Below, piece after piece: positions 7,735 through 63,770 of a DNA stretch of 64,000 nucleotides. The notes beneath the pieces were generated by a model. That model did not search any database and was not told the origin of the DNA. It saw only the letters and a list, made by a program, of their open reading frames with translations. The first letter of the stretch is position 1; every line of letters begins with the position of its first letter. The stretch is from Bacillus sp. F19 (GTDB lineage Bacteria > Bacillota > Bacilli > Bacillales > Bacillaceae): positions 584,001-648,000 of the forward strand of contig CP085710.1 of assembly GCA_023823795.1 (NCBI GenBank), given 5' to 3'. The translations under genes were made by a program, and so were the position numbers.

Positions 7735-9437
7735 TCTGAATGGGTGCCTTAGAAACCGGAAAAAACGATTCAGATGGTGCCCTAGAAAACAGAAAAAGCG
7801 AAATCCAGGTATCCATACGAGCGGAATGGTGCCCTAGAAACGGGAAAAAGCGAAATGCAGGTACCCATAGGATCGAAATGGTGCCCTAGAAACGGGAAAA
7901 AGCGAAATGCAGGTACCCATAGGATCGGAATGGTGCCCTAGAAAACAGAAAAAGCGAAATGCAGGTACCCATAGAGCGAAATGGTGCCCTAGAAAACAGA
8001 AAAAGCGAAATGCAGGTACCCATAGGATCGAAATGGTGCCCTAGAAACGGGAAAAAGCGAAATCCAGGTACCCATAGGATCGAAATGGTACCCTAGAAAC
8101 GGGAAAAAACGAAATCCAGGTACCCATAGGATCGGAATGGTGCCCTAGAAACGGGAAAAAGCGAAATGCAGGTACCCATAGGAACGGAATGGTGCCCCAG
8201 AAAACAGAAAAAGCGAAATTCAGGTACCCATAAGAGCGGAATGGTACCCTAGAAAACAGAAAAAGCGAAATTCAGGTACCCATTAGGAGCAGAATGGTGC
8301 CCTAGAAACGGGAAAAAGCGAAATGCAGGTACCCATACGAGCAGAATGGTACCCTAGAAATCTGAAAAAGCGAAATCCAGGTATCCATAAGAGCGGAATG
8401 GTGCCCTAGAAAACAGAAAAAGCGAAATCCAGGTACCCATAGGATCGAAATGGTACCCTAGAAACGGGAAAAAACGAAATCCAGGTACCCATAGGAACGG
8501 AATGGTGCCCTAGAAACGGGAAAAAGCGAAATGCAGGTACCCATAGGAACGGAATGGTGCCCTAGAAACGGGAAAAAGCGAAATGCAGGTACCCATACGA
8601 GCAGAATGGTACCCTAGAAATCTGAAAAAGCGAAATCCAGGTATCCATAAGAGCGGAATGGTGCCCTAGAAAACAGAAAAAGCGAAATCCAGGTACCCAT
8701 AGGATCGAAATGGTACCCTAGAAACGGGAAAAAACGAAATCCAGGTACCCATAGGAACGGAATGGTGCCCTAGAAACGGGAAAAAGCGAAATGCAGGTAC
8801 CCATAGGAACGGAATGGTGCCCTAGAAACGGGAAAAAGCGAAATGCAGGTACCCATACGAGCGGAATGGTGCCCTAGAAAACAGAAAAAGCGAAATCCAG
8901 GTCCCTATACGAGCGAAATGGTGCCCTAGAAAACAGAAAAAGCGAAATGCAGGTACCCATAGGAACGGAATGGTGCCCTAGAAAACAGAAAAAGCGAAAT
9001 TCAGGTACCCATAAGAGCGGAATGGTACCCTAGAAAACAGAAAAAGCGAAATTCAGGTACCCATTAGGAGCAGAATGGTGCCCTAGAAACGGGAAAAAGC
9101 GAAATGCAGGTACCCATACGAGCAGAATGGTACCCTAGAAATCTGAAAAAGCGAAATCCAGGTATCCATAAGAGCGGAATGGTGCCCTAGAAAACAGAAA
9201 AAGCGAAATCCAGGTACCCATAGGATCGAAATGGTACCCTAGAAACGGGAAAAAACGAAATGCAGGTACCCATAGGAGCAGAATGGTGCCCTAGAAAACA
9301 GAAAAAGCGAAATGCAGGTACCCATACATAGGAACGGAATGGTGCCCTAGAAAACAGAAAAAGCGAAATCCAGGTATCCATAGGATCGGAATGGTGCCCT
9401 AGAAAACAGAAAAAGCGAAATCCAGGTCCCCATTCGA
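7735..9437. repeat. Tandem array A: about 32 copies of a ~52-bp unit
   Basis: The 1.7 kb between fumA and pdaA is almost wholly a tandem repeat of 51-52 bp (for example GGTGCCCTAG begins every 51-52 nt from 7827). Conserved landmarks per unit are GGTGCCCTAGAAA, GGGAAAAAGCGAAATGCAG and GGTACCCATAGGA. Variants alternate (GGTGCC or GGTACC; AACGGG or AAACAG), and blocks of units recur exactly, e.g. the variant AGAAATCTG unit near 8337, 8597 (260 nt later) and 9118. The period is not a multiple of three, so it does not encode a repeat protein. First and last units are degenerate. No gene is supported inside. Confidence 0.95.
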
Positions 9438-9545
9438 AAAGCTTGCTAAATCATTCCTTCCCATATGTTACCTGCTAAAAAACAGTATGTAATTCACGTT
9501 CTTTCCGACACTATAGATAGAAACTATTTCAGGGGAGCGATTTTT

Positions 9546-10349
9546 TTGAAATACTGTTGCGCTATTTTAAGTGTTCTGCTGTTTTTATCATTCGGAATAC
9601 ATGAAGCAAAAGCGTCTGTCTCTAACCAGCCGATCAACTGGGGCTTTGAAAAAAGCAAAAATCACAAATCAGTAAATCCTGGTTTGCCGCTCGAGAAGCT
9701 GCTGAATAAGTATGATTCTTTTTTTATGGGTGACCCGACTCAAAAATATATTTACTTAACATTTGATAATGGTTACGAAAACGGCTATACGGGAAGAGTC
9801 CTTGATGTGCTGAAAAAAAGAAAAGTACCCGCCGCTTTTTTTGTAACAGGTCATTATTTGCTCGATCAGCCGGAGCTTGTCAAGCGCATGGCAGATGAAG
9901 GCCATATTGTTGGTAACCATTCATGGCATCACCCGGACTTAACAAAAGTCAGTGATGAACGATTTAAGAAAGAGCTGGACTCGGTAAGACTGAAAACAGA
10001 GCAGTTAACAGGCTACCATGGCATCAATTATTTGCGCCCGCCAAGAGGTGTTTTCAGTGAAAGGGTTCTGTCTTTATCAAGAGAACTTGGCTATCAGCCT
10101 GTATTCTGGTCGCTTGCCTTCGTCGACTGGCATACGAATGCACAAAAAGGCTGGAGATACTCATATGATCAAATCATGGCTCAAATTCACCCAGGCTGTA
10201 TTCTATTGCTGCATACTGTCTCTAAAGATAATGCAGAAGCTCTTGACCGTGCGATAGAAGATTTAACAAAACAAGGCTATATCTTTAAAAGCCTTGATGA
10301 TCTGATGATTGACCGAACATTTCACCAGCCATTCTTTTACTCCCTTTGA
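9546..10349 (+). CDS. pdaA: PdaA, delta-lactam-forming peptidoglycan N-acetylmuramic acid deacetylase
   Basis: Polysaccharide deacetylase (NodB fold) needed for muramic delta-lactam in spore cortex peptidoglycan, acting outside the membrane. Conserved motifs: TFDNGYENGYT (motif 1, with the D-to-N change typical of PdaA), HSWHHPDL (motif 2, metal-binding His), LRPPRG (motif 3) and LLLHTVSKDN (motif 5). The open frame extends upstream to 9465, but the TTG at 9546 has GGGGAG 8 nt before it and begins a signal peptide (LKYCCAILSVLLFLSFGI), giving 267 residues, near the family length. The context after array A and before yfjP matches B. subtilis pdaA/yfjS. Confidence 0.92.
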   Translation: MKYCCAILSVLLFLSFGIHEAKASVSNQPINWGFEKSKNHKSVNPGLPLEKLLNKYDSFFMGDPTQKYIYLTFDNGYENGYTGRVLDVLKKRKVPAAFFVTGHYLLDQPELVKRMADEGHIVGNHSWHHPDLTKVSDERFKKELDSVRLKTEQLTGYHGINYLRPPRGVFSERVLSLSRELGYQPVFWSLAFVDWHTNAQKGWRYSYDQIMAQIHPGCILLLHTVSKDNAEALDRAIEDLTKQGYIFKSLDDLMIDRTFHQPFFYSL

Positions 10350-10370
10350 CTTATGCTCGGAGGGAGTTTT
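10339..10370 (+). terminator. Probable terminator of pdaA
   Basis: ACTCCCT and AGGGAGT pair around a 15-nt loop followed by TTTT; the stem begins inside the last codons of pdaA. Confidence 0.55.
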
Positions 10371-10392
10371 GCGTTTCCCGCTTGTGTATTCA

Positions 10393-10401
10393 TGGTATAA
10401 T
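10393..10401 (+). promoter_or_regulatory. Extended -10 promoter for the AlkA-type gene
   Basis: TGGTATAAT is a perfect extended -10 element 29 nt before the ATG at 10430. No good -35 is seen at the usual distance, consistent with an extended -10 promoter. Confidence 0.55.
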
Positions 10402-10429
10402 ACACAGTATCAAAAATAAGGGATTTGAG

Positions 10430-11299
10430 ATGACTATGTGGGAAGAACGTATACGAATAGAACCTCCATATGATTTTGACCGTATGCTTGATCGTTTATC
10501 CATGGATCCGCTTCATCATGTCAGATTAGTGAAGCGTGAGGTTTCCATTCCTCTCCGAAACCAGAACAACGATCCTTTTGTTGTAACCGTAAAAGGACTG
10601 GGTACTAAAACGGCTCCTGAGTTTCTCTTAAGTGGGAAATCAGACAAAGACTATGCGATAAAAGAAACAATGCGCATTTTTCAATGGAATGTATCTTTAG
10701 TTGATGTTCAAACACATTTTCGTTCTTCAAACATTGCAGAAATATTCGAAGCGCATGACGGGACGCCGATTGTCCTTGAATTTAGTCTTTACGGCTGTCT
10801 GATGAAGTGCATTATTCATCAGCAGCTCAATCTGAAATTCGCCCATACACTGACAGAGCGTTTTGTTCATACATTTGGTGAGCAGATTGATGGTGTATGG
10901 TTTTACCCTGCTCCTGAAAAAGTGGCGGAACTTGATTACAGTGATTTAAGGGAGCTTCAGTTCAGCGGCCGCAAAGCAGAGTATGTGATTGATACATCAA
11001 AGCTTATAGCTGAAGGCAAAATAAATCTTGAAGAACTTCAGAATATGGAAGATGCAGATATTCTTAAGGAGCTTGTAAAAATACGCGGTGTAGGTCCCTG
11101 GACCGTCCAGAATCTGCTTTTATTCGGTCTCGGTCGTCCAAACCTTTTTCCGTTTGCAGATATAGGTATACAAAATGCATTAAAAAAGCATTTTCAGCTT
11201 GAACGGAAACCAACCTTTGAAGAAATGGAGATACTAAGCAAAGAGTGGTCACCTTATTTAAGCTATGCATCTCTTTATTTATGGAGAAGCATTGAATAG
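10430..11299 (+). CDS. DNA-3-methyladenine glycosylase (AlkA/HhH-GPD family, YfjP-like)
   Basis: 289-residue base-excision repair glycosylase predicted to remove alkylated purines. The helix-hairpin-helix and GPD region is clear: [16 protein letters not shown] near residue 220, then [11 protein letters not shown] with the catalytic Asp near 247. The N-terminal part resembles the AlkA_N fold. The frame is open from 10346, but ATG 10430 has AAGGG and a good spacing, and the preceding residues are non-conserved; a second ATG lies at 10436. It is followed closely by rlmCD, matching the yfjP-yfjO order in B. subtilis, probably as an operon. Confidence 0.85.
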
Positions 11300-11315
11300 A
11301 AATGGAGCGGCAAAC

Positions 11316-12704
11316 ATGAAGACCAATCAGAAAAACATCGGAATTACCCTTGAAAAAGGACAGACTTTTCCTCTCACAATAAAAAGACTCGGCATTAACG
11401 GAGAAGGGGTAGGCTACTTTAAAAAACAAGTCGTTTTTGTGCCAGGCGCCCTTCCGAACGAGGAAGTTGTGGTAGAAGCAACGAACATCGGACAGAAATT
11501 TGCAGAAGGCAAGATCAAGAAAATCAGAAAGGCATCCCCTCACAGAGTAGATGCGCCGTGTCCGATTTATCATGAGTGCGGGGGCTGCCAGCTTCAGCAT
11601 TTTTCCTATGAACAGCAATTAAAAGAAAAGAGAGACATTATTGTTCAGGCGATGGAGCGGTATTCAGGGCTTGATTTAAGTAAAGTTGAAATCAGACAAA
11701 CAATCGGCATGGATGATCCATGGAATTACCGGAATAAAAGCCAGTTCCAGACTGGTTTACGAAACGGCAAAGTCATTGCCGGCCTTTACAGCAAAAATTC
11801 ACATCATCTTGTAAATATTGATCACTGTATTGTACAGCATGAAGCAACAAATAAAGCGACTCAAACAGTAAAGCAGATTTTGCAGGATTTGAAGGTATCA
11901 ATTTATGATGAACGTAAGCGCAAAGGAATCGTACGTACGATTGTCAGCAGAATTGGCTTTACAAGCGGTGAGGTACAGATTGTCCTGATCACATCACAAG
12001 AGAACCTTCCGCGCAAAGAACTGATTGTAAGTGAAATTCAAAAGCGCCTTCCTGAAGTGAAATCCATTATGCAGAATGTAAACGGCGAAAAAACGTCTTT
12101 GATCTTCGGAGAGAAAACCATTCACTTAGAAGGCGAAGAAGTGATTCAAGAGAAATTGGGCGATCTTTCGTTTGAATTATCAGCACGTGCCTTTTTTCAA
12201 TTAAATCCTGTTCAGACAGTCAAGCTGTACAATGAAGTTAAAAAAGCGGCACAGCTTACAGGTTCTGAAAAAGTAGTTGATGCATATTGCGGAGTCGGCA
12301 CCATCGGCATGTGGCTTTCTGAAGGTGCGAAGGAAATCAGAGGGATGGATACAATCGCGGACTCCATTATAGATGCGAAGAAAAATGCAAAGAAGCATGG
12401 AGTTAAAAATGCAACTTATGTAAAAGGAACGGCTGAGCACTGGCTGCCTAAATGGCTTGGGGAAGGGTGGCGTCCTGATGTTGTGGTAGTGGACCCGCCG
12501 CGTACTGGCTGTGATTCAAAATTATTAGGCGCGATCTTAAAGGTTAAACCGGAGAAATTCGTCTATGTATCATGCAACCCATCAACACTTGCAAAAGATA
12601 TTCAAACACTTTCAAAAGTGTATAAAGTGAAGCACATTCAGCCTGTAGACATGTTCCCGCATACAGCACATGTGGAAAGTGTCACATTGCTAGAAAAGAA
12701 ATAA
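11316..12704 (+). CDS. rlmCD: 23S rRNA (uracil-C5)-methyltransferase RlmCD (YfjO-like)
   Basis: 462-residue RumA/TrmA-type methyltransferase making 5-methyluridine in 23S rRNA with SAM. An N-terminal TRAM domain (about 15-70) is followed by an iron-sulfur Cys set ([10 protein letters not shown] near residue 80, plus a later Cys in HCIVQH). The SAM-binding motif is [12 protein letters not shown] near 320, and the catalytic nucleophile is C in DPPRTGC near 400, with the [11 protein letters not shown] motif after it. ATG 11316 follows GGAG at 8 nt; upstream in-frame residues overlap the glycosylase end. B. subtilis has two such paralogues; synteny points to YfjO. Confidence 0.88.
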
Positions 12705-12730
12705 TCCAAAGAAATGAAAAGGTGAAAATT

Positions 12731-13867
12731 ATGAACGACACATGGTCATTGCTGACAGAAGCGAAGCCATTTTTACAAGAGGCATGGAAGAAAGCAGCAT
12801 ACACAAACCCGACAGCGATACAGGAAAAAGCGATACCAATGATATTGGATGGACGTGATGTTATCGCTGAATCCCCAACCGGTACAGGAAAAACTCTTGC
12901 TTACCTGCTTCCGCTTTTAGAGCGCATCAATTCAGAAAGCAAGGGAGTTCAAGCGTTAATTATGGCTTCTTCGCGCGAGTTAGTCATGCAGATTCATCAG
13001 GAAATTCAAAAATGGTCGGAGGGAAGCGGCATTTTAGGAGCTTCTTTCATCGGCGGAGCAAATGTGAAAAGACAGCAGGAAAAGCTGAAAAAGCGTCCGC
13101 AGATTATTGTCGGTACGCCGGGCCGTGTCTCTGAGCTTATTAAACAAAAGAAAATCAAAATGCATGAAGTAAAAACAATCGTACTTGATGAAGGAGATCA
13201 GCTGCTTCAGCCTGAACATTTATCAGATATTAAAAACATCATTAAAACAACATTGAAGGACAGACAGCTCTTGCTTTTCTCGGCAACTCTCCCGGAAAAA
13301 ACGGAAGCAGAAGCGAGAAGCCTGATGCAGAATCCTGAAGTTATCAAAGTCAGCAGAGATGAAAGCGTGCAGTCTAAAGTCGATCATATCTATTTCACTG
13401 CAGAAGCCAGAGATAAAATTGATTTACTTCAAAAGCTCTCAAGATTAGATGGAGCTAAAGCGATCGCATTTGTTAAAGACATCGGAAATGCAGCTGTTTT
13501 AGCAGAAAAGCTTATGTACAAAGGATTGCCGCTTGGCATTCTTCACGGGGATTCTACAAAGCGAGAGCGGGAAACAGCCATCAAAAGTTTCCGTACAGGA
13601 GAGCTACCGATGCTCCTCGCTACAGATGTAGCAGCAAGGGGCCTCGATATTGAAGGGGTTACACACGTTATTCATTATGACCTTCCCGAAACAGTTGAGC
13701 AGTATGTTCACCGCTCGGGCAGAACAGGACGAAATGGAGCAGACGGAACGGTCGTTTCGCTTGTAACAGAACGAGAAGAGCGTGAACTGAAGCAAATCTG
13801 CAGAGGATTAAAGGTTGAGCTTCATAAAAAGCGTTTTTATAAGGGCGAAATTGTAGAATCTAAATAA
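12731..13867 (+). CDS. DEAD-box-type RNA helicase (YfmL-like)
   Basis: 378-residue ATP-dependent RNA helicase core without a C-terminal RNA-binding extension, like B. subtilis YfmL, which acts in ribosome assembly and cold growth. Motifs in order: Q-motif NPTAIQEKAIP, motif I SPTGTGKT, GTPGR, motif II DEGD (in IVLDEGDQLL; the third residue differs from DEAD), SAT, and the C-terminal ARGLDIEG and HRSGRTGR. A GTG at 12722 is in frame, but ATG 12731 has AAAGGTG at 6-nt spacing. It sits 26 nt after rlmCD, so both rRNA-related genes are likely co-transcribed. A strong terminator follows. Confidence 0.85.
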   Translation: MNDTWSLLTEAKPFLQEAWKKAAYTNPTAIQEKAIPMILDGRDVIAESPTGTGKTLAYLLPLLERINSESKGVQALIMASSRELVMQIHQEIQKWSEGSGILGASFIGGANVKRQQEKLKKRPQIIVGTPGRVSELIKQKKIKMHEVKTIVLDEGDQLLQPEHLSDIKNIIKTTLKDRQLLLFSATLPEKTEAEARSLMQNPEVIKVSRDESVQSKVDHIYFTAEARDKIDLLQKLSRLDGAKAIAFVKDIGNAAVLAEKLMYKGLPLGILHGDSTKRERETAIKSFRTGELPMLLATDVAARGLDIEGVTHVIHYDLPETVEQYVHRSGRTGRNGADGTVVSLVTEREERELKQICRGLKVELHKKRFYKGEIVESK

Positions 13868-13869
13868 AA

Positions 13870-13902
13870 AAATCCCGCAGCCAGATGGCTGCGGGATTTT
13901 TT
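13870..13902 (+). terminator. Strong Rho-independent terminator
   Basis: AATCCCGCAGCC and GGCTGCGGGATT form a 12-bp perfect stem with AGAT loop and T-run. Confidence 0.93.
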
Positions 13903-13937
13903 ATATACTTCTCTCCCCTCCTGCGTATTACAAAACG

Positions 13938-13954
13938 TGTAAGGAAATGTAACA
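13938..13954 (+). promoter_or_regulatory. TnrA/GlnR-type box upstream of the nitrite reductase remnant
   Basis: TGTAAGGAAATGTAACA matches the TnrA/GlnR consensus TGTNANAWWWTMTNACA at all but two specified positions. It lies about 70 nt before the start of a NasB/NasD-like remnant, where nitrogen control of nas genes is expected. Confidence 0.6.
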
Positions 13955-14624: not shown

Positions 14625-14637
14625 ATTTCTTTATATA

Positions 14638-34637: not shown

Positions 34638-35207
34638 ATGAAGAAAAAGAAACTGACTATCTTTTTATCGCTGATCATGGCCGTTTCATTGTCACTTGGT
34701 GCTTGCGGGAACAGTGCAGGGGATCAAGGAGAAAAAAAGGAAGTTTCGGAACATATGGATCATGGCAGTATGAACCACTCAAGCTCTGGAGAAGTGCCTG
34801 AAGGGTTAAAAGAGGCGGAAAGTCCATCTTATGAAGTAGGAAGTAAAGCCATTATCAAAACCGATCATATGGAAGGTATGAATGGTGCCGAAGCTGTGAT
34901 TTCGGGTGCATTTGATACAACTGTTTATGCCATCTCCTATACTCCTGAAGGCGGCGGAGATCCTGTTGTGAATCATAAATGGATTATTCATGAAGAAATC
35001 AAGAATGCTCCTGAACAACCGTTAAAAGCAGGAGATGAAGTAACTGTCGAGGCGAGCCATATGGAAGGCATGGAGGGCGCGGAGTCTGTCATTGATTCTG
35101 CTGAAAAAACAACGGTATATATGGTCGATTACACCCCTGAAGGCGGCGGTGAAGAAGTAAAAAATCACAAATGGGTGACAGAAAGTGAGTTAGCCAAAGC
35201 TGAATAA
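34638..35207 (+). CDS. YdhK-like lipoprotein with two DUF1541 repeats
   Basis: 189-residue lipoprotein (lipobox LGAC, Cys near 23). A His/Met-rich linker EHMDHGSMNHSSS follows, then two DUF1541 repeats, each with DHMEGMNGAEAVI or SHMEGMEGAESVI and YTPEGGG(D/E)...VNHKW. The repeated HMEGM and HKW residues suggest copper or other metal binding (inference). Known YdhK homologues are often next to copper or membrane-stress genes; here it stands alone. ATG 34638 follows GGGAGG. Confidence 0.83.
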   Translation: MKKKKLTIFLSLIMAVSLSLGACGNSAGDQGEKKEVSEHMDHGSMNHSSSGEVPEGLKEAESPSYEVGSKAIIKTDHMEGMNGAEAVISGAFDTTVYAISYTPEGGGDPVVNHKWIIHEEIKNAPEQPLKAGDEVTVEASHMEGMEGAESVIDSAEKTTVYMVDYTPEGGGEEVKNHKWVTESELAKAE

Positions 35208-35267: not shown

Positions 35268-35299
35268 GGTAACAGCCGTGCTCTTTTCAAATTTAAGCA

Positions 35300-35535
35300 G
35301 GGATTGGAGCAGAAAAATCGCTTCCCCCCTGAAAAAAGTGCGTCAAAGCGGGAAATGGAGCAGAAAAATCGTCCCTCGCTCTTAAAAAAGTGCGTCAAAG
35401 CGGGGAATGGAGCAGGAAAATCGTCTCTCCCCTGAAAAAAGTGCGTCAAAGCTGGGAATTGAGCAGAAAAATTGTCTCACCTCTGAAAAAAGTGCGCCAA
35501 AGAGGGGAATTGAGCAGAAAAATCAACTCCACCGT
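35300..35535. repeat. Tandem array B: five copies of a ~51-bp unit
   Basis: The unit begins at the GAGCAGAAAAATCG landmark (preceding base at 35306, 35357, 35409, 35460, 35511; steps 51, 52, 51, 51) and continues with CTGAAAAAAGTGCGTCAAAGCGGGAAATG, here described in parts. Period equals that of arrays A and C, and AAAGCGGGAAATGGAGCAG resembles their core. Copies differ at several positions, so the array is older or less homogenised than array A. No gene inside. Confidence 0.85.
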
Positions 35536-35601
35536 GAAAAATTAGTTTAGACGATGTACTTATATTGAAAAATCTAAAAACCCAAAGAAAGTTCCTAAAA
35601 A

Positions 35602-49029: not shown

Positions 49030-53729
<4,700 letters not shown>

Positions 53730-53769
53730 CATCTAATATGTGTAAATGTAAGTGAATCTTGTTATCAAA

Positions 53770-53855
53770 CGTTATTTAGTTTTGAAAGAATAACTTCTTT
53801 CAAAAAAAAGCTTGAAATCTTTTGATTTCATAGTATAATAATTTTTGTCACTATG
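53770..53855 (+). other. 23S-5S spacer with an 11-bp hairpin and promoter-like sequence
   Basis: TTTTGAAAGAA and TTCTTTCAAAA form a perfect stem. TTGAAA (53812) and TATAAT (53834) are 16 nt apart, an internal promoter candidate ahead of 5S and the tRNAs. Confidence 0.5.
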
Positions 53856-53971
<116 letters not shown>

Positions 53972-53986
53972 TGGTGAAAATATTAT

Positions 53987-54061
53987 TCCGCAGTAGCTCA
54001 GTGGTAGAGCTATCGGCTGTTAACCGATCGGTCGTAGGTTCGAGTCCTACCTGCGGAGCCA
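53987..54061 (+). tRNA. tRNA-Asn (GTT)
   Basis: Cloverleaf with 7-bp acceptor TCCGCAG/CTGCGGA, anticodon GTT, encoded CCA. First of 16 tRNAs in the B. subtilis trnD order. Confidence 0.95.
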
Positions 54062-54065
54062 TTTT

Positions 54066-54155
54066 GGAGAGCTGTCCGAGTGGCCGAAGGAGCACGATTG
54101 GAAATCGTGTAGGCGGTAACCCGTCTCAAGGGTTCGAATCCCTTGCTCTCCGCCA
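54066..54155 (+). tRNA. tRNA-Ser (GGA)
   Basis: Long variable arm typical of Ser, acceptor GGAGAGC/GCTCTCC, anticodon GGA in TTGGAAA, encoded CCA. Confidence 0.95.
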
Positions 54156-54169
54156 CTACTTATATAAAT

Positions 54170-54244
54170 GGCCCGTTGGTCAAGCGGTTAAGACACCGCC
54201 CTTTCACGGCGGTAACACGGGTTCGAATCCCGTACGGGTCACCA
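54170..54244 (+). tRNA. tRNA-Glu (TTC)
   Basis: Anticodon loop CTTTCAC with TTC; acceptor GGCCCGT/ACGGGTC, CCA encoded. Confidence 0.95.
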
Positions 54245-54260
54245 ACATCATTTTCACTGC

Positions 54261-54336
54261 GGAGGATTAGCTCAGCTGGGAGAGCATCTGCCTTACAAGC
54301 AGAGGGTCGGCGGTTCGAGCCCGTCATCCTCCACCA
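54261..54336 (+). tRNA. tRNA-Val (TAC)
   Basis: Anticodon TAC in CTTACAA; acceptor GGAGGAT/ATCCTCC, CCA encoded. Confidence 0.95.
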
Positions 54337-54394
54337 TCTTTACTAAATTGCTGCTGTACTGAATTTAGCAGCACAAAACTTCATTTATTATTAT

Positions 54395-54471
<77 letters not shown>

Positions 54472-54474
54472 AAT

Positions 54475-54550
54475 GGTCCCGTGGTGTAGCGGTTAACATG
54501 CCTGCCTGTCACGCAGGAGATCGCCGGTTCGATCCCGGTCGGGACCGCCA
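54475..54550 (+). tRNA. tRNA-Asp (GTC)
   Basis: Anticodon GTC in CTGTCAC; acceptor GGTCCCG/CGGGACC, CCA encoded. Confidence 0.95.
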
Positions 54551-54574
54551 TTCTTAATTAAAAAAGAAAAAAAT

Positions 54575-54650
54575 GGCTTGGTAGCTCAGTCGGTAGAGCA
54601 AAGGACTGAAAATCCTTGTGTCGGCGGTTCGATTCCGTCCCAAGCCACCA
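54575..54650 (+). tRNA. tRNA-Phe (GAA)
   Basis: Anticodon GAA in CTGAAAA; acceptor GGCTTGG/CCAAGCC, CCA encoded. Confidence 0.95.
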
Positions 54651-54663
54651 TTTACACTTAAAT

Positions 54664-54739
<76 letters not shown>

Positions 54740-54749
54740 CTTACAGTGT

Positions 54750-54834
54750 GGAGGGGTAGCGAAGTGGCTAAACGCGGCGGACTGTAAATCCGCTCCCTCC
54801 GGGTTCGGCGGTTCGAATCCGTCCCCCTCCACCA
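54750..54834 (+). tRNA. tRNA-Tyr (GTA)
   Basis: Long variable arm, anticodon GTA in CTGTAAA; acceptor GGAGGGG/CCCCTCC, CCA encoded. Confidence 0.95.
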
Positions 54835-54851
54835 TTTTATAAAAAGAATAT

Positions 54852-54925
54852 AGGGGCATAGTTTAAAGGTAGAACAGAGGTCTCCAAAACCTCCGGTGTG
54901 GGTTCGATTCCTACTGCCCCTGCCA
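54852..54925 (+). tRNA. tRNA-Trp (CCA)
   Basis: Anticodon CCA in CTCCAAA; acceptor AGGGGCA/TGCCCCT, CCA end encoded. Confidence 0.95.
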
Positions 54926-54951
54926 ATAATTTAAATCTTATATAGTATAAT

Positions 54952-55028
54952 GGCGGTTGTGGCGAAGTGGTTAACGCACCAGATTGTGGCTCTGGCATTC
55001 GTGGGTTCGATTCCCATCAGTCGCCCCA
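54952..55028 (+). tRNA. tRNA-His (GTG)
   Basis: Anticodon GTG in TTGTGGC; extra 5' G as expected for His; CCA encoded. TATAAT just upstream (54945) is promoter-like. Confidence 0.94.
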
Positions 55029-55059
55029 TTTTTTACTTAATAGGTTTTTTGTTCTGTTT

Positions 55060-55134
55060 TGGGCTATAGCCAAGCGGTAAGGCAACGGACTTTGACTCCG
55101 TCATGCGCTGGTTCGAATCCAGCTAGCCCAGCCA
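55060..55134 (+). tRNA. tRNA-Gln (TTG)
   Basis: Anticodon TTG in CTTTGAC; acceptor TGGGCTA/TAGCCCA, CCA encoded. Confidence 0.95.
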
Positions 55135-55193
55135 TTTTTCAATAAGAGTCATCTTTGTGCAGCTCCTGCATAAAATACATTACGATACGATTT

Positions 55194-55268
55194 GCGGAAG
55201 TAGTTCAGTGGTAGAACACCACCTTGCCAAGGTGGGGGTCGCGGGTTCGAATCCCGTCTTCCGCTCCA
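55194..55268 (+). tRNA. tRNA-Gly (GCC)
   Basis: Anticodon GCC in TTGCCAA; acceptor GCGGAAG/CTTCCGC, CCA encoded. Confidence 0.95.
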
Positions 55269-55276
55269 ATAGTTGA

Positions 55277-55350
<74 letters not shown>

Positions 55351-55369
55351 ATTTTTATTTATCACCCTT

Positions 55370-55458
55370 GCCGGGGTGGCGGAACTGGCAGACGCACAGG
55401 ACTTAAAATCCTGCGGTAGGTGACTACCGTACCGGTTCGATTCCGGTCCTCGGCACCA
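55370..55458 (+). tRNA. tRNA-Leu (TAA)
   Basis: Long variable arm GGTAGGTGACTACC, anticodon TAA in CTTAAAA, CCA encoded. Confidence 0.95.
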
Positions 55459-55478
55459 TCTTCATCACAATTTCATTT

Positions 55479-55559
55479 GCCGGTGTGGCGGAATTGGCAG
55501 ACGCGCACGACTCAAAATCGTGTTCCTCTGGAGTGTCGGTTCGACCCCGACCACCGGTA
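55479..55559 (+). tRNA. tRNA-Leu (CAA), without encoded CCA
   Basis: Anticodon CAA in CTCAAAA, long variable arm, acceptor GCCGGTG/CACCGGT. The discriminator A is followed by TCA rather than CCA, so the end must be added after transcription. Last tRNA of the array. Confidence 0.92.
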
Positions 55560-55587
55560 TCATTTTACTTAAAAACTAGCTAATTAT

Positions 55588-56606: not shown

Positions 56607-58683
56607 TCGATTTGCCTCCTGTAAAAATAAGTTTGGCACTATTGAGGACAACACCTATTGTTGCCGCATTATGAATGGCAGCACCTACAACAGGTCTTAT
56701 GATTCCGAACGTCCCGAGTAATATGGCGCCGGTATTAATAAGAAGGGTAGCAGTGATGTTTTGTTTCATGATCTTCATCGTTTCTTTAGAAATATTAATG
56801 GCTTCGCTCACCAGCAAAGGGTTGTCGGAATGAATAACCACATCTGCAGTTTCCATTGCAATATCCGTTTTTTTGGAACCGATTGTAACACCGATGTCTG
56901 CATAGGCAAGGGCAGGTGCATCATTGATCCCGTCCCCGACCATCATGATAGTCCGTTCCTGATCTTTTTTGAGGTGCCGGACAATGCTGGCTTTATCCTG
57001 GGGCATGGCCTCTGAGATGTATTCGTCTACAGAGATGCGGGCAGCTACTTTTTTTGCAGCTTGTTCATAGTCACCGGTCAGCATGATGCATTCATCAATT
57101 CCATTCCGTTTCAGCTGATTGATTGAACGATTCATACCATTTCTGATTTTATCTTCAATTTCAATTACACCCATCAGCTGGAGGTTCATTGCTACATATA
57201 CCCCTGTTTGAAGACGGCCGGGTACATCTACACCATGATCATCCATAAAATTCCTGCTTCCTACGATGACATGTTTCCCATTAACAAAAACAGAAACGCC
57301 TTTTCCTACGTAATTTTCTAACGATTCGTCTTCATGATCAGGTATGGAGATACCCCTGATCTCGGCTTCCGCTAAAATGGCCTCGGCAATTGGATGAGAG
57401 GAATGCTCCTCAGCGGAAGCAGCATAAGCCAGCAGCTGGTCTTCTGAACAGCCGTTAACGGTATGAATTTCTGTAACAATCGGCTTTCCTTCTGTGACGG
57501 TTCCTGTTTTATCAAAAATTACTGTATCTGTTTTAGCCAGTTTCTCGATTGTATGGCCGCCTTTTATTAAAATTCCTTTTTGGGCTGCCTTCCCGATTGC
57601 TCCTGAAATGGCGGCTGCTGTCGATAGCTTTACTCCGCACACATAATCAATTACAAGCATATTCAGCACCCGGTTCCAGTCTCTTGTAAAAACGAAAATA
57701 AAGCCAGCCAGCATAAATGATAAAGGAACCATCTTATTCGTAAAGCGCTCAGATATTGTTTGTATTGGTGCTTGCTTATCCTGAGCCTCTTCGATTAATT
57801 TGATCATCCTGTTAACTGTCAGATCCTCACCAATTTTGTCTACCTCAAGAACGATGTTCCCTTCAGTGACGATGCTTCCGGCATACACATAAGAACCTTC
57901 TGAAACATGAACATGTGTATATTCTCCCGTTATAGAGGATTGATCAACTTGAGCATGATGGCTTACAATTCTACCGTCAAAAGGGATCTTTTCCCCTTGG
58001 AAAACAGCAACTTGATCACCGGCTTTTACTTTGTCTGTTTCGACTTTAATTTCTTGTTGATTTCCGGTGACCAGCCAAGCATAAGGTGTTTTAACTTCCA
58101 TCATTTCCCTTATGTGTCCTCTTGTCCTGTTTAACGTATAATCCATGAGCCATTCACTGATGGACGACATGACATAGATAACCAGTGCGGATTGCGGACT
58201 TCCTTTTAATAAAGATGCAATCAGAGCGGAAGCAGTAAGGGTATCTGGATTAGGTTTTCTCAAAGATTTTAAACCATTGATGATTATTTCCCTTGAAGCG
58301 TACAAAACTGCAAAAGCAGAAGGAGTAAAGAAGTTTGCAAAAGGCCCTTTGAAAAGAGGCGGTAAACCAAACATTCTCTCCGCAATATAAGTTGATGCCA
58401 CCAGCCCGAAACCGCTAAAAGCCTGCAGTGGTGAAGAGGTTTTTCTTGCAGATTGGGCATGAACAGATTTTTCAGGAGAAGGAAATAATTCCAATTTTAG
58501 ATTAATGCAGGCTGAAGAATGGTGAAGCACAGCAGTACGGCTTATTGGAGAATATAAGGCTGATATGACTCCGGGAATCGACCTGAGCTTTGCTTCAATA
58601 ACGGAAATGGACTCCCCGCTGCCAGTCCATCTGACTCTTGTTCTTCCTGGAATGGAATGCAAAATCTCAATGGCTAAATTCAT
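56512..58683 (-). CDS. P1B-type metal ATPase, CtpC-like, with atypical metal motif
   Basis: 723-residue P-type ATPase. N-terminal HMA_2 domain (LHSIPGRTRVRW), about six to eight membrane segments, actuator SSITGEY near 240, phosphorylation motif DKTGTVTEG near 390, SSHPIAEA near 440, TGDYEQAA near 560 and MVGDGINDAPALAYAD near 590. The usual CPC of the metal-site helix is replaced by YVC (in VIDYVCGVKL; codons 57637-57645). Whole-length resemblance to mycobacterial CtpC is clear (SEWLMDYTLNRTR, IHNAATIGVVLNSAKL). Substrate unknown. ATG 58683 follows AGAGGGG, 2 nt after the previous stop. The C-terminus may extend past its natural end. Confidence 0.85.
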   Translation of the reverse strand: MNLAIEILHSIPGRTRVRWTGSGESISVIEAKLRSIPGVISALYSPISRTAVLHHSSACINLKLELFPSPEKSVHAQSARKTSSPLQAFSGFGLVASTYIAERMFGLPPLFKGPFANFFTPSAFAVLYASREIIINGLKSLRKPNPDTLTASALIASLLKGSPQSALVIYVMSSISEWLMDYTLNRTRGHIREMMEVKTPYAWLVTGNQQEIKVETDKVKAGDQVAVFQGEKIPFDGRIVSHHAQVDQSSITGEYTHVHVSEGSYVYAGSIVTEGNIVLEVDKIGEDLTVNRMIKLIEEAQDKQAPIQTISERFTNKMVPLSFMLAGFIFVFTRDWNRVLNMLVIDYVCGVKLSTAAAISGAIGKAAQKGILIKGGHTIEKLAKTDTVIFDKTGTVTEGKPIVTEIHTVNGCSEDQLLAYAASAEEHSSHPIAEAILAEAEIRGISIPDHEDESLENYVGKGVSVFVNGKHVIVGSRNFMDDHGVDVPGRLQTGVYVAMNLQLMGVIEIEDKIRNGMNRSINQLKRNGIDECIMLTGDYEQAAKKVAARISVDEYISEAMPQDKASIVRHLKKDQERTIMMVGDGINDAPALAYADIGVTIGSKKTDIAMETADVVIHSDNPLLVSEAINISKETMKIMKQNITATLLINTGAILLGTFGIIRPVVGAAIHNAATIGVVLNSAKLIFTGGKSNVFQIPNPTFHSRQNEIIGSGAGSNNRALSY

Positions 58684-58685
58684 GG

Positions 58686-59219
58686 TCAACCCCTCTCTTT
58701 TTTGTTTTTTGATATAATTGTGTAAGCCCAATAGAGAAGGCTGCTCGAATAAACTGGATTTGCAGGCAGCTTTAATATACCGCTTACAATCAGCACAACC
58801 GACAATAAAGAGTCCGTATCCACTCTCCCTGCTGTCTGTTTTTTTAGTCCAGTATCAAGGTTTTGCATCAAATTAGATAGAATCTGAGAAAGGTCCGACT
58901 GGATCCCCGGATAAGAAGCAACGGAGATTTCAACCGCTCCCTTTACTATCTCATCAAACTGTTCCTGTGTAATCATCTGCTCATAAAATTCGATCAATAG
59001 CGTACCTGTAATAGAGGATGCTTCAGCTCTCTTCACTGTTGGAACGTCATTAAAGACTTTTGTTAGATTGGAAGCTGTATACTCATTTTTCCACCTGTCG
59101 CATTTCAAGCGCACCCTCCCAGGAATAGCGTGAACAACATGAACTTTTTGATCCTTTATTGCTGAAATGATTTTAGGAGCGGCTAAGGAAGCTCCAATTC
59201 CAAGCATTGTTTTAAGCAT
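58686..59219 (-). CDS. HMA_2-like domain protein with C-terminal membrane segments
   Basis: 177 residues: short hydrophobic N-terminus (MLGIGASLAAPKII), HMA_2 domain with VVHAIPGRVRLKCDRW and a second half SSITGTLLIEFYEQ, then two hydrophobic helices (LLSVVLIVSGILKL; YSSSLLYWAYTII). No CxxC. Predicted partner of the downstream ATPase, perhaps a metal relay or assembly subunit (inference). ATG 59219 follows GGGAG. The stop is 2 nt from the ATPase start, so translation is coupled. Confidence 0.75.
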   Translation of the reverse strand: MLKTMLGIGASLAAPKIISAIKDQKVHVVHAIPGRVRLKCDRWKNEYTASNLTKVFNDVPTVKRAEASSITGTLLIEFYEQMITQEQFDEIVKGAVEISVASYPGIQSDLSQILSNLMQNLDTGLKKQTAGRVDTDSLLSVVLIVSGILKLPANPVYSSSLLYWAYTIISKNKKERG

Positions 59220-59237
59220 ATGATTTCTCCCAGCTTA

Positions 59238-59540
59238 TCATGTATATTTTTCTATGATTTTCAGCCAGCGTTTAATAGAAAGCGGCTGTGCAGCAGACTC
59301 CGGTTTAAATAGAATGAGAGCAGAGCCCGTCTCTTTCGTAAATTCTATTGAATTAATATCTGGATCCTGTTTCATTTCGTCAATCAGCAACCACATATTC
59401 TTCTCATTGTCTCTCCAATTTGGAAAAGACAGACGCATGCGTCCTGGAATATAATGCTTAAGGAAAATCCCATTCCTCTGCAGCAGCGTATTCACCCTTC
59501 TTGTAAAAAAATAATCCTGTACAGCATTCAGCAAATCCAT
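59238..59540 (-). CDS. Small HMA_2-like domain protein
   Basis: 100 residues, soluble: helix (LLNAVQDYFFTRRVNTLLQR), then KHYIPGRMRLSFPNW, and a beta/alpha tail ending in SIKRWLKIIEKYT. It is the isolated HMA_2 fold of the operon, again without CxxC. First gene of the set, 18 nt ahead of the next. ATG 59540 with GAGGGG close upstream. Confidence 0.7.
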   Translation of the reverse strand: MDLLNAVQDYFFTRRVNTLLQRNGIFLKHYIPGRMRLSFPNWRDNEKNMWLLIDEMKQDPDINSIEFTKETGSALILFKPESAAQPLSIKRWLKIIEKYT

Positions 59541-59622
59541 ACCCCTCTACTAAATATTGTATTTATTCTTTTTTTTGAATTTTATAACTATCATCTTATA
59601 TAGTCAATAATTTCCTATTATA

Positions 59623-59640
59623 ACAGGATAATAGTCCTGT
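59623..59640. promoter_or_regulatory. Inverted repeat upstream of the P-type ATPase operon
   Basis: ACAGGA-TAATAG-TCCTGT is a perfect 6-bp inverted repeat about 83-100 nt before the first gene. A metal-responsive repressor operator is possible. 59541-59816 otherwise has only AT-rich promoter-type sequence for both divergent operons. Confidence 0.35.
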
Positions 59641-59816
59641 CTCTTTCAACAAAGAAAGATAAAGTTAGCCAGATCTATGGTTCGGGCCTTCAATCTATAG
59701 ATATGTTTTACTTTCTTAAATAATTTAACTGTTCAGCTACCCGGCTGTCTTTTTCACTAGCAAGATCATATAGTCAAAATATTGCACCTTCTTCGTCAAT
59801 TTAGTCTCCCTATATA

Positions 59817-59854
59817 AGTAAGCGCTGCCATTATAATAAAAGAAAGCGATTACA
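59817..59854 (+). promoter_or_regulatory. Two cre-like sites around a -10 of the sugar transporter operon
   Basis: AGTAAGCGCTGCCA (59817) and AGAAAGCGATTACA (59841) match the CcpA consensus TGWAANCGNTNWCA with two and one mismatches. TATAAT (59832) lies between them. CcpA binding here would repress the operon when glucose is present. Confidence 0.6.
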
Positions 59855-59875
59855 TTAAAAGGGGTGGTGATACGG

Positions 59876-60817
59876 TTGGAAACGAAAATTCAGACGGATC
59901 CGGTAAGCACGAAATCTCATTTGGAGGCAGTACCTAAAAAGAAATTTAAGTATAAGAGTTTACTAACATACGCTGCCTTTGTTGGACCGGCACTTTTATT
60001 TTTCTTAGTTATTCAGATTCTTCCTTTCTTAATGGGTCTTTATTATTCATTTACTTCATGGAATGGAGTCAGCTCGGCTGTTGAGTGGGTAGGAATTGAG
60101 AATTATAAGAAAATCTTTACGAACGATCCGGCCTTTTTTAATTCTTTTATGTTTACGACGAAATTTATGTTTGCGGCTGTTATTATTAGTAACTTAATAG
60201 GTTTTGCGTTTGCGCTGATTTTAAATGCTGCGCTTAAAACCAAAAACATATTGCGGACTGTGTTTTTTATTCCTAACGTGATCGGCGGGTTATTGCTCGG
60301 ATTTATCTGGCAGTTTATTTTTGTAAAAGGGTTTGCTTCGATCGGGAACATGACGGGCATCGAATTTTTCAAAATGCCGTGGCTTGGGGATGAAACGACA
60401 GCGTTCTGGGGAATTGTCATTGTATTTGCATGGCAGACCAGCGGTTATATGATGGTCATCTATATTGCAGCGCTTCAAGGTGTGGATAATTCCCTGCTGG
60501 AGGCTGCGAAAATGGATGGTGCATCAAGCTTCACACTTTTAACAAAAATCATTATTCCTTTAATATTACCGGCATTTACGATTTGTCTGTTCTTAACGAT
60601 TTCGATGGCATTCAAGATCTTTGACCTGAATATTTCCCTGACAGGCGGAGGGCCATTCAATTCAACTCAGTCTGTAGCGATTAATATTTATCAGGAAGCC
60701 TTCCAGAACAACCGTTATGGATTAGGTACAGCGAAGTCCATTCTGTTCTTTGTAGTAGTTGCAATCTTTACTACAGTTCAGGTTATGATGACGAAGAAGA
60801 GGGAGGTTGAGGCTTAA
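59876..60817 (+). CDS. Sugar ABC transporter permease (MalF/UgpA-like)
   Basis: 313-residue CUT1-type permease: a hydrophilic N-terminus, six hydrophobic segments, and the EAA loop NSLLEAAKMDGASSFTLLTK near residue 208. Motif FNSTQSVAINIYQEAF near 265. The frame opens at GTG 59864; the TTG at 59876 is 8 nt from AAGGGGTGG and begins METKIQT, so it is preferred. Its stop overlaps the next start (TAATG). The substrate is a sugar or oligosaccharide, not identifiable. Confidence 0.87.
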   Translation: METKIQTDPVSTKSHLEAVPKKKFKYKSLLTYAAFVGPALLFFLVIQILPFLMGLYYSFTSWNGVSSAVEWVGIENYKKIFTNDPAFFNSFMFTTKFMFAAVIISNLIGFAFALILNAALKTKNILRTVFFIPNVIGGLLLGFIWQFIFVKGFASIGNMTGIEFFKMPWLGDETTAFWGIVIVFAWQTSGYMMVIYIAALQGVDNSLLEAAKMDGASSFTLLTKIIIPLILPAFTICLFLTISMAFKIFDLNISLTGGGPFNSTQSVAINIYQEAFQNNRYGLGTAKSILFFVVVAIFTTVQVMMTKKREVEA

Positions 60818-61644
60818 TGGGTAACCGGTATACAAGCAGGACGTTTATATTAGAGATAATAGCCATTGCCGTCGCGCTCATTTTCCTTGTTCCTTTTTAC
60901 TTCGTGCTGATCAACTCTGTCAAGCCGTTTGCGGCAATCCTCATTGATGCTGCAGCATGGCCGAAGGAATTCATGTTTTCTAACTATGCCAAGGTGTGGG
61001 AGATCATCAACTTCCCTCGTGCATTCTGGAACTCCCTTGTGATTACGGTTTTCAGTAACATTGGTTTAGTTATCATAAGTTCGATGGCTGCGTGGAAAAT
61101 GGTCCGCACGCCAGGAAAGTTCAGCAAGATTTTATTCATTCTCTTCGTAGCTGCCATGGTCATCCCGTTCCAGACGGTCATGATCCCGCTTATGAAGCTT
61201 GGCGGTACGCTCGGGATAACAAATAGTATTCCAGGCTTAATCATGATGTATTTTGGATTTGGTGTTCCGCTGTCGCTGTTCTTATATCATGGATTCGTAA
61301 AAACAGTTCCTGTGGAAATTGAAGAATCAGCGAAAATAGACGGGTGCAGCGAGTTCGGAGTATTTTGGAGAATTGTTTTCCCTCTTCTAAAACCGATAAC
61401 TGTCACGGTCGTTATTTTGAACACGCTATGGATCTGGAATGATTATCTGCTTCCATTGCTGGTTCTTCAGGATGCAGAGCTGCGGACGATTCCGCTTGCA
61501 GCAAGCTCATTCTTTGCTCAGTATACGAAGCAGTGGGATATGGGTCTTGCCGCGTTAGTGCTTGGTATTACACCAGTCGTCATCTTCTTCTTATTCTTAC
61601 AGAAGCACATTATCAAGGGCATTGCTTCTGGCTCAATCAAGTAG
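60817..61644 (+). CDS. Sugar ABC transporter permease (MalG/UgpE-like)
   Basis: 275-residue CUT1 permease with six hydrophobic segments and EAA loop EIEESAKIDGCSEFGVFWRI near residue 168. ATG overlaps the previous stop, so translation is coupled. No ATPase gene is present in the operon; such systems share an MsmX-type ATPase. Confidence 0.9.
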   Translation: MGNRYTSRTFILEIIAIAVALIFLVPFYFVLINSVKPFAAILIDAAAWPKEFMFSNYAKVWEIINFPRAFWNSLVITVFSNIGLVIISSMAAWKMVRTPGKFSKILFILFVAAMVIPFQTVMIPLMKLGGTLGITNSIPGLIMMYFGFGVPLSLFLYHGFVKTVPVEIEESAKIDGCSEFGVFWRIVFPLLKPITVTVVILNTLWIWNDYLLPLLVLQDAELRTIPLAASSFFAQYTKQWDMGLAALVLGITPVVIFFLFLQKHIIKGIASGSIK

Positions 61645-61726
61645 ATATAAAGTTTCTGCATTCATTGGATGTAATGGGTGCAGAAAATTATATAATATTA
61701 TAGTTATCAAGGAGGTCAATCCATTA

Positions 61727-63010
61727 ATGAAACGCTTTCTGTTATTATGTATGTCTTTGGTATTCGTATTTGGTATTATGGCTGGCTGTTCTTCAAAGGA
61801 AACGGCTAAAGATGGGGAATCAGGCGGAGATTCTAAGTCTGGTGATGAAGTAGTAACGCTTAATTTCTTCCAATTCAAGGTTGAAATTGCTGATCAGCTT
61901 CAAGAGATGATTAAAGAATTCGAAGCTGAGCATCCAAACATTAAAGTAAAGCTTGAAACAGTTGGCGGAGGTGCCGATTACGGTGCAGCGCTTAAAGCAA
62001 AATTCGCTTCAGGTGAAGAGCCGGATATTTTCAACAACGGCGGATTTAAAGAATTAGAGCTTTGGAAAGAAAAGTTAGCTGATCTATCAGGCGAGCCATG
62101 GGTTGAGCATGTTCTTCCAATCGGAAAAGTGCCAATGACAGATGCAGACGGCAAGCTTTATGGTATGCCTGTAAACCTTGAAGGATATGGATTTGTTTAC
62201 AACAAAGATTTATTTAAAAAAGCGGGTATTACAGAGCCGCCTAAAACGATTGACGAATTAAAAGCCGCTGCGAAAAAGCTTGAAGCTAAAAAGATCACTC
62301 CATTCTCTGCCGGTTATGGCGAGTGGTGGGTAATTGGACAGCATTTACTTAACATTCCATTTGCTCAGCAAGAAGATCCAGAAGCATTTATCGCTGGATT
62401 ATATGATGGTTCTGAGAAAATCCCAGGCAACAAGCAGTTTAAAGAATTTAAAGAAGTATTAGACACAGAGCTTAAATATGCAAACGATAATCCATTAACA
62501 ACAGATTACAATACTCAAGTTACACTGTTTGCTTCTGGTGAAACAGCAATGCTTCAACAAGGAAACTGGACTGAGAACATGATCACTGAAATCAATCCTG
62601 AAATCAACATGGGCTTCCTTCCAATTCCAATCAGCAATGATGATAGTGCAGGAAACCTTCCTGTAGGCGTTCCGAATAACTGGGTATTGAATAAAAACTC
62701 AGAGCACCTTGAAGAAGCTAAAACATTCTTAAACTGGATGGTTTCTTCTGAAACTGGTAAACGCTTCATCACAGAAGAATTTGCATTCATTCCAGCATTT
62801 GATAACATTGAGCCAGCAGGTCTTGGCGATCTGGGAACATCAATCCTTGATTACTCTAAGGAAGAAAAAACAATTCCTTGGACTTGGTTCAAATGGCCGG
62901 ATGGAGCGAATAAAGAATTCGCAGCAGCTATACAGGAATACGCTGCAGGCAAAATTGATTATGATACACTGCTTGAGAGATTCCAGACCTCATGGGATAA
63001 CTTGAAGTAA
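61727..63010 (+). CDS. Sugar ABC transporter substrate-binding lipoprotein
   Basis: 427-residue family 1 solute-binding lipoprotein: lipobox MAGC near residue 23, Gly/Asp/Ser linker, then LNFFQFKVEIADQLQEMIKE and EAEHPNIKVKLETVGGG, and the SASGEEPDIF-type ASGEEPDIFNNGG near 100. ATG 61727 follows GGAGG at 11 nt; the longer open frame from 61562 overlaps the permease and is not used. The sugar is unknown. A terminator follows. Confidence 0.9.
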   Translation: MKRFLLLCMSLVFVFGIMAGCSSKETAKDGESGGDSKSGDEVVTLNFFQFKVEIADQLQEMIKEFEAEHPNIKVKLETVGGGADYGAALKAKFASGEEPDIFNNGGFKELELWKEKLADLSGEPWVEHVLPIGKVPMTDADGKLYGMPVNLEGYGFVYNKDLFKKAGITEPPKTIDELKAAAKKLEAKKITPFSAGYGEWWVIGQHLLNIPFAQQEDPEAFIAGLYDGSEKIPGNKQFKEFKEVLDTELKYANDNPLTTDYNTQVTLFASGETAMLQQGNWTENMITEINPEINMGFLPIPISNDDSAGNLPVGVPNNWVLNKNSEHLEEAKTFLNWMVSSETGKRFITEEFAFIPAFDNIEPAGLGDLGTSILDYSKEEKTIPWTWFKWPDGANKEFAAAIQEYAAGKIDYDTLLERFQTSWDNLK

Positions 63011-63018
63011 TAGATTGA

Positions 63019-63055
63019 AAGAAAGCATGCCTGTTAGAGGTATGCTTTCTTTTCT
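63019..63055 (+). terminator. Terminator of the sugar transporter operon
   Basis: AAGAAAGCATGCCT and AGGTATGCTTTCTT pair with a small loop, then TTTCTTG. Confidence 0.85.
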
Positions 63056-63064
63056 TGCCAACCC

Positions 63065-63770
63065 ATATTGTTGATTCAATAGGCGCGATGCAGCACTTTC
63101 TAGAGAAGTCAGTATCGAGTTGTGGTATCAAAAAGCGAAATGCAGCACTTTCCTAAGCAGTCAACATCGATTTGTGGTATTAAAAAGCGAAATGCAGCAC
63201 TTTCTAAAGAAGAAAGCATCGATTTGTTGTATCAAAAAGCGAAATGCAGCACTTTCCAAAGCAGTCAACATCGAGTTGTGGTATTAAAAAGCGAAATGCA
63301 GCCCTTTCCAAAGCAGTCAGCATCGATTTGTGGTATCAAAAACCAAAATGCAGCACTTTCTAAAGAAGAAAGCATCGAGTTGTGGTATCAAAAAGCGAAA
63401 AGCAGCACTTTCTGAAGAAGTCAGCATCGATTTGTGGTATCAAAAAGCGAAAAGCAGCACTTTCTGAAGAAGTCAGCATCAAGTTGTGGTATCAAAAACC
63501 AAAATGCAGCCCTTTCTGAAGAAGTCAGCATCAAGTTGTGGTATCAAAAACCAAAATGCAGCCCTTTCTAAAGAAGTCAGCATCGAGTTGTGGTATCAAA
63601 AACCAAAATGCAGCACTTTCAGAAGAAGTCAGCATCAAGTTGTGTTATCAAAAACCAAAATGCAGCCCTTTCTAAAGAAGTCAGTATCGAGTTGTGGTAA
63701 CAAAAACCGAAATGCCGCACTTACCAAAGGAGTCTTATCAAGTTGTTGCATCAACTCAATCCGCACTTAT
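63065..63770. repeat. Tandem array C: about 13 copies of a 52-bp unit
   Basis: Units with landmark GTGGTATCAAAAAGCGAAATG and GCAGCACTTTCTGAAGAAGT follow each other every 52 nt (start positions 63122, 63174, 63226 and on; the unit is described in parts). Variants: AAAGCGAAATGCAG or AACCAAAATGCAG. The core AAAAAGCGAAATGCAG is identical to that of array A, 55 kb away. The end is degenerate near 63720-63770. It fills most of the space between the binding protein and the following gene. Confidence 0.93.

Follow-up and report, generated by a model that had tools for sequence, protein, structure and literature searches.

Fixed-length 52-bp tandem arrays in Bacillus and the NERD-domain protein family beside them: a candidate RAYT/REP-like gene-plus-repeat system

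Tandem repeats of constant unit size have been published for Bacillus: Subirana and Messeguer described repeats of 52 nt, and others of 20-21 nt, in two studies (2019, PMC6749651; 2021, PMC8161180). As far as the available text of these papers goes, the 52-nt repeats are non-coding, have units of 51-53 nt, form several families per genome, and vary in sequence between and within species with partial conservation between strains. Arrays of 52 nt have also been published for Heyndrickxia coagulans; B. subtilis 168, according to PMC8161180, is poor in tandem repeats. That some bacteria carry many tandem repeats of one exact length and unrelated sequence is a published puzzle. Which protein, then, could be their partner? 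The 2021 paper states that nothing points to a Cas-like protein interacting with the 52-nt repeats; its available text contains no palindrome register, arm constraint or NERD protein, and has no occurrence of 'nuclease', 'NERD', 'palindrom' or 'transpos'. A link between NERD proteins and 52-nt repeats was not found in the open-access literature, to the extent of its available text, and a literature search by unit sequence gave nothing relevant among the matches listed. Constant 52-nt size with variable sequence in Bacillus is already known; what is new here, at the level of sequence, is a unit palindrome with constrained arms, the adjacency of NERD genes and arrays, their co-occurrence and their own-genome matching.

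A second system, REP/BIME palindromes with RAYT transposases (PMC2817692), offers a useful comparison. RAYT genes are flanked by their own REP repeats. The REP/BIME sequences are extragenic imperfect palindromes that are dispersed and form several families, and the repeats studied here are likewise; a cognate gene also stands beside its own palindromic repeats here, with NERD in the place of RAYT. The two differ in that the enzyme here is a NERD protein and not a Y1/HUH transposase, and in that the repeats here are tandem arrays of fixed length. The Y1 (HUH) transposase profile PF01797 had no match in G000, G001, G002, G005, G006 and G007, that is, in six of eight same-genus genomes, in a search whose control was positive in 5 of 14 genomes. 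As a driver of the arrays, RAYT/IS200 was rejected on the absence of PF01797 from G000, G002 and G006; it is present in G003 and G004. The arrays also recall CRISPR in lying next to a gene and in combining a conserved, semi-palindromic part with a stretch of constant length, but their linkers are near-identical within an array, no acquired unique spacers were seen, and there are many arrays per genome.

The window analysed is a stretch of 64,000 nt (positions 584,001-648,000) on a contig of 5.09 Mb, the genome measuring 5.59 Mb in all; the arrays, headers and flanking genes described next lie on the window's plus strand. Among plasmid records, only one from Metabacillus dongyingensis matches a stretch of the genome's second contig (7% covered, 94%), so that the species is probably Metabacillus-like. 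A sequence-only reading had described three intergenic arrays of about 52 bp, and TRF finds all three between flanking genes. Array A (7774-9433; period 52, 31.8 copies) has a 52-bp unit made of the dyad GGTACCCAtaggagcggaATGGTGCCC and a linker; one copy of this imperfect dyad of about 27 bp, in the register of an alignment of 77 arrays, occupies 7860-7886. The array lies between a gene for a class I fumarate hydratase-like protein of the Fe-S type (6066-7598) and that for the delta-lactam-biosynthetic de-N-acetylase PdaA (9465-10349). Immediately 5' of it is a header (7700-7773) containing TTCGCCAACCTATACTGG which, judged by eye, is partly common to array C and to an array at 1.967 Mb of contig C1 (stretch L040). 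Array B (35295-35541; period 51, also 103; 4.8 copies) follows a YhcN/YlaJ-like sporulation lipoprotein gene (34638-35207; a weak match, below cut-off). Array C (63088-63734; period 52, 12.4 copies), whose dyad is weak, follows a carbohydrate ABC substrate-binding-like gene (61562-63010; below cut-offs) and has its own header, TTGCCAACCCATATTG, at 63056-63074, again by eye. Start-to-start spacings are 52 in 26 of 30 in A (the remainder 51, 53, 53 and 56), 51/52/51/51 in B and 52 in all 12 in C. The window holds no gene of the NERD family. It also carries an rRNA operon (16S, 23S, 5S) followed by 16 tRNA genes at 49032-55561.

Do the three arrays share a core as well as a length? The earlier reading had claimed both a common period of 51-52 bp and a common sequence core. 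The period proved to be the real invariant, with B at 51 bp, and most of the unit sequence is not shared. The 16-mer AAAAAGCGAAATGCAG does occur in exact copies in both A and C: a search of the whole 5.59-Mb genome gives 17 copies, 13 in A, four in C and none elsewhere, and allowing up to two mismatches adds one further array (C1:1,967,692-1,968,066). Its place, however, is the linker in A units but the loop and right arm in C units; because the registers differ, it is a shared motif and not one aligned core, and a single shared core was ruled out. Nor is the resemblance a matter of chance. A pair of 11-mers from the family, spaced by 52 and allowed up to three mismatches, matched 140 times in this genome, 78 in G002, 67 in G006 and 15 in G003; its reversed control gave none in 61 genomes.

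The arrays belong to a dispersed, genome-wide class of constant length, as the proposal of a repeat family spreading within the genome had implied. Like the published class, it has a period of 51-53 with units of varying sequence, comprises several families in one genome and, by a stop-free-frame test, is non-coding. Among non-coding arrays with a period of at least 40, 14 of 22 have a period of 52 or a multiple of it in the window plus 60 own-genome stretches of 20 kb, of which 14 had been picked near core matches (13 of the first 20 and one later); the figure is 13 of 20 in 24 stretches from five same-genus genomes picked without regard to such matches. With the spacing left free between 38 and 68, 13 of 299 genomes of the order were positive, the reversed control matching only G054 (two matches), and among the matches listed 84 of 88 spacings were 52, three 51 and one 50. 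Across a wider collection, members turned up in Cytobacillus, Neobacillus, Peribacillus, Schinkia, Fredinandcohnia, an Alkalihalobacillus MAG and others, and also in Ammoniphilus (Paenibacillaceae), with the pattern fixed at 52, so that the period of these arrays is ascertained; the free-spacing scan, the stretch survey and both batches of NERD flanks described below are free of this. The constancy agrees with the earlier remark that 52 bp is about five helical turns. Phage and plasmid collections gave no match to an array (one array as query) or to the NERD family, which led to the rejection of a phage or plasmid origin, and nine pattern matches in IMG/VR had spacings of 51, 53 and 54, none of 52.

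The anatomy of the unit emerges when arrays are set side by side. The 77 arrays with a 52-bp consensus were placed in one gapless register of 52 columns, which some of them, C included, fit weakly; further duplicate loci were skipped in building it, and the main-family set omits 10 of the 77 rows (nine below a score cut-off of 20 and one same-locus duplicate). Over 43 representatives of less than 80% identity, each of columns 1-27 carries 1.29 bits, compared with only 0.31 for each of columns 28-52. The former make an imperfect dyad, in the main family roughly GGKNAYCA-N11-TGATNCCC, whose arms reach outward with varying sequence: when one array is taken from each of 20 genomes, the complementarity of the outer arms reaches 0.50 where 0.30 is expected, and 0.18-0.30 on slid diagonals. 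Neighbouring units are spaced by 52 in 703 of 757 instances, part of the arrays having been found with the 52-spaced pattern. Within 55 arrays, the rate of change is 0.044 in conserved dyad columns, 0.066 in other arm columns, 0.118 in the loop and 0.130 in the linker, and the arms change less than the linker in 49 of the 55 (p=2e-9). Constraint on the arms within an array while loop and linker drift is new here, as judged from the sequences.

Such arms could be constrained as RNA or as DNA. Transcribed arrays whose units are small structured RNAs, which we regard as improbable, would fit the outer-arm complementarity, a fold z of -1.56 for the dyad segment and the satellite transcripts in RNA-seq of B. 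coagulans (PMC8625621, in its available text). The two strands fold equally, however, G-U changes do not clearly exceed A-C changes (185 to 152, p=0.08), only five double changes are compensated against 14 uncompensated, and the window arrays have no Rfam match at gathering score. A hairpin followed by a T run, terminator-like by eye, also separates gene and array at several loci, which speaks against transcription into the array; before array A it was not called by the terminator scan, and scans for promoter-like and terminator-like sites in and around A and C found none. Genes are called on either side of 45 main-family arrays; the one upstream of the unit is co-directional in 34, and only three of the spacers are divergent. 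Given the lack of strand preference in folding and the G-U to A-C ratio, the constraint is read as acting on DNA recognised by a protein.

Which protein might that be? When gene neighbours within 3 kb of arrays were clustered into families, the commonest encoded a protein of about 304 residues with an N-terminal NERD (nuclease-related) domain. E, D and K are presumably the catalytic residues of the NERD motif, and E48, D80 and K95 are invariant in three aligned family sequences. The PF08378 (NERD) profile scores 65-72 bits against a cut-off of 22.1 in four of four proteins. The domain is thus over cut-off as in other PF08378 proteins, and the subfamily differs from them in its predicted winged-helix C-terminus, which rests on modelling, and in the adjacent 52-bp array. 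The structure model is poor over the nuclease half, a zinc-ribbon signature is weak, and a number of copies have internal stops. Three genes of the family are present in the window's genome (C1:3,025,339, 3,428,458 and 4,635,562), and the array beside each is different; since the search scored at most seven candidates a genome, copy numbers are minimum values. A class-wide search also returns matches of 24-33% identity, taken as distant NERD proteins outside the family. Elsewhere in the same genome, L101:5478-5600 holds a 41-residue family remnant (63% identity) with no array found behind it, and in G002 a NERD gene is flanked on both sides by 52-bp arrays (L158:4540-7156).

The linkage of gene and array was also approached from the protein, by collecting the sequence 3' of NERD genes whether or not an array was known there. 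In a first batch, comprising 20 of the 25 best-ranked NERD rows (omitting the query and four more, some of them close to a contig end), all 20 flanks, from 15 genomes, held a 51-53-bp array starting 19-178 bp past the stop (median 67). A second batch of 20 genes from 20 other genomes, chosen before looking and with flanks of at most 471 bp, gave 17 arrays by TRF (one of them in L337, despite 211 N), one by autocorrelation only, one flank with none and one lost to a contig end (L340, 158 bp, excluded as not evaluable). In sum, an array lies just 3' of the stop in 38 of 39 evaluable family genes, which come from 34 genomes. None of eight distant paralogues (25-29% identity) has one in flanks reaching only 152-209 bases past the stop, lengths that leave the family itself with 20 to 32 of 39; if the distant paralogues were alike, about six of eight would be expected. 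Two further distant paralogues also lack a 52-bp array. Equal windows of 291 bp give 37 of 39 against 0 of 8, an unfair comparison, since those distant genes extend beyond the match.

The linkage is strong, and the mechanism behind it is one that we infer. The NERD family becomes the first candidate partner for the 52-bp repeats, and a position directly before the array in nearly every evaluable case makes the partner question testable. A different role, that of a nucleoid scaffold, was proposed for the 52-nt repeats by Subirana and Messeguer, with no NERD protein in the available text. A host DNA-binding protein would polymerise on sites phased by 52 bp, and the NERD genes would be adjacent for some other reason. 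The constant five-turn length, the constrained arms and the scatter of arrays across the chromosome would suit such a scaffold. Palindromes that differ among arrays of one genome are nevertheless hard to reconcile with a single host protein, occurrence is patchy (13 of 299 by one pattern), and adjacency to one gene family in 38 of 39 cases is not predicted, which leaves the scaffold rather unlikely, if less improbable than structured RNAs.

Co-occurrence points again to the NERD family. It is present in 111 of the 299 order genomes, and in 12 of the 13 pattern-positive ones against 99 of 286 others (p=4e-5), the pattern detecting only one array type, so that array bearers such as G005 are counted among the 'others'. 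In the exception, G263, a broken NERD fragment remains. All 16 named array-bearing genomes have the family, 15 at full length and one as a remnant only, at least six of these genomes being identical, by coordinates, to some of the 13. Units behind different NERD genes mostly differ in sequence; an inverted repeat with arms of at least 9 occurs in 20 of 44 NERD-adjacent units, where 0.4 would be expected. For the 30 units measuring exactly 52 bp, a dyad axis on a base is significant in 16 and one between bases in a single unit. When dispersed arrays of four genomes were compared with the 44 NERD-adjacent arrays, 18 of 32 matched best an array of their own genome, a partial cognacy as far as sequence similarity can tell. 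Array B matches the array behind the second NERD gene of its own genome (score 22, null maximum 11), A scores 15 to that of the first and 19 to a foreign array, and C, at 10, equals the null maximum and has no NERD assignment.

These comparisons establish a constant period, a palindrome with constrained arms, adjacency, co-occurrence and a partial own-genome match; we lean towards explaining them by a RAYT/REP-like system of a NERD protein and its cognate array, of which A, B and C would be dispersed members. Binding, cutting, amplification and dispersal by the NERD protein are what we infer. A NERD gene would immediately precede a master array whose units measure 51-53 bp, and the gene's product, as a dimer or multimer, would recognise its own palindrome, the 52-bp spacing (five helical turns) setting all sites on one DNA face. 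The protein would cut or nick the DNA there, and copying during repair would then expand and homogenise the arrays and seed related ones in gene-free spacers, much as RAYT transposases accompany REP palindromes; A, B and C would be orphan arrays with no adjoining NERD gene. That different NERD copies carry different palindromes would account for the presence in a genome of several array families with the same length. The idea of a protein-binding platform, raised in the earlier reading as one possible role, is favoured by the constrained arms and now has a candidate protein, the binding itself being presumed. If true, the enzyme of a REP/RAYT-like system would here be one unrelated to RAYT, and the length of a DNA repeat would be fixed by a protein through helical phase.

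More broadly, we hold the case evenly balanced for a new gene-repeat class, NERD-52, in which palindrome-specific nucleases with diverging targets and a five-turn ruler imposed by the protein would write as well as maintain arrays across Bacillales, either as selfish elements, then independent of HUH transposases, or as a self-marking guard, then chromosome-encoded and marking self DNA. A purely defensive version, in which host arrays sequester or guide the nuclease, docking it on the chromosome for release against invading DNA, and are kept for immunity instead of being spread, seems unlikely, though somewhat less so than the scaffold. It would draw on the close NERD-array adjacency (38 of 39), the lack of matches in plasmid and phage collections and a weak resemblance of the NERD domain, far below cut-offs, to domains of BREX PglW and MADS6; the PADLOC matches are weak, however, and the internal stops in a number of copies resemble turnover.

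The distant paralogues bring in other repeats. One (L352, in G007) has a 21-bp array on its 3' side and another (L119:2298-4347) is preceded, about 170 bp ahead of its start, by an array of 266-bp period. With 2 of 10 distant paralogues next to such repeats, the 21-bp class may have a second NERD subfamily as its partner. The window's genome has a second constant-length class with units of 20-21 bp, or two helical turns, for example CCAATTCGCAAAAA, at L039:9017-10128, L087:15879-16771, L091:11595-11699, L095:4285-4542 and L120:4552-5516, some units being embedded in composite repeats of 181-228 bp. A separate tandem family has repeats of 120-123 bp (L036:12260, L112:15984, L294:10622 and L305:19710).

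Comparison of orthologous loci, which the sequence-only reading had recommended, reveals differences in presence or copy number for A and B among same-genus genomes. Array A is absent from the orthologous spacer in six of them, and among 30 pdaA loci used as a control the only 52-bp array is A itself; the spacer of B has about one unit in G006 against 4.8 here. For five array loci of G002, the G000 orthologue also has an array in three cases and none in two, with no clear target-site duplication at these G002/G000 empty sites. Large copy-number change and missing arrays are what a neutral satellite would produce by slippage and unequal crossing-over, its 52 bp inherited from a single ancestor. 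We consider this the least probable of the explanations, and very improbable: the sequence of the linker hardly departs from random when arrays are compared (0.31 bits per column), yet its length is fixed, equal rates of change in arm and linker were looked for and not seen, the arms being constrained, and the arrays adjoin one gene family. In G002, the orthologues of the spacers of A and C (L053 and L220) contain AT-rich stretches with a common ATGGTGATTTT(C/G)GC, perhaps another intergenic repeat occupying the same spacers.
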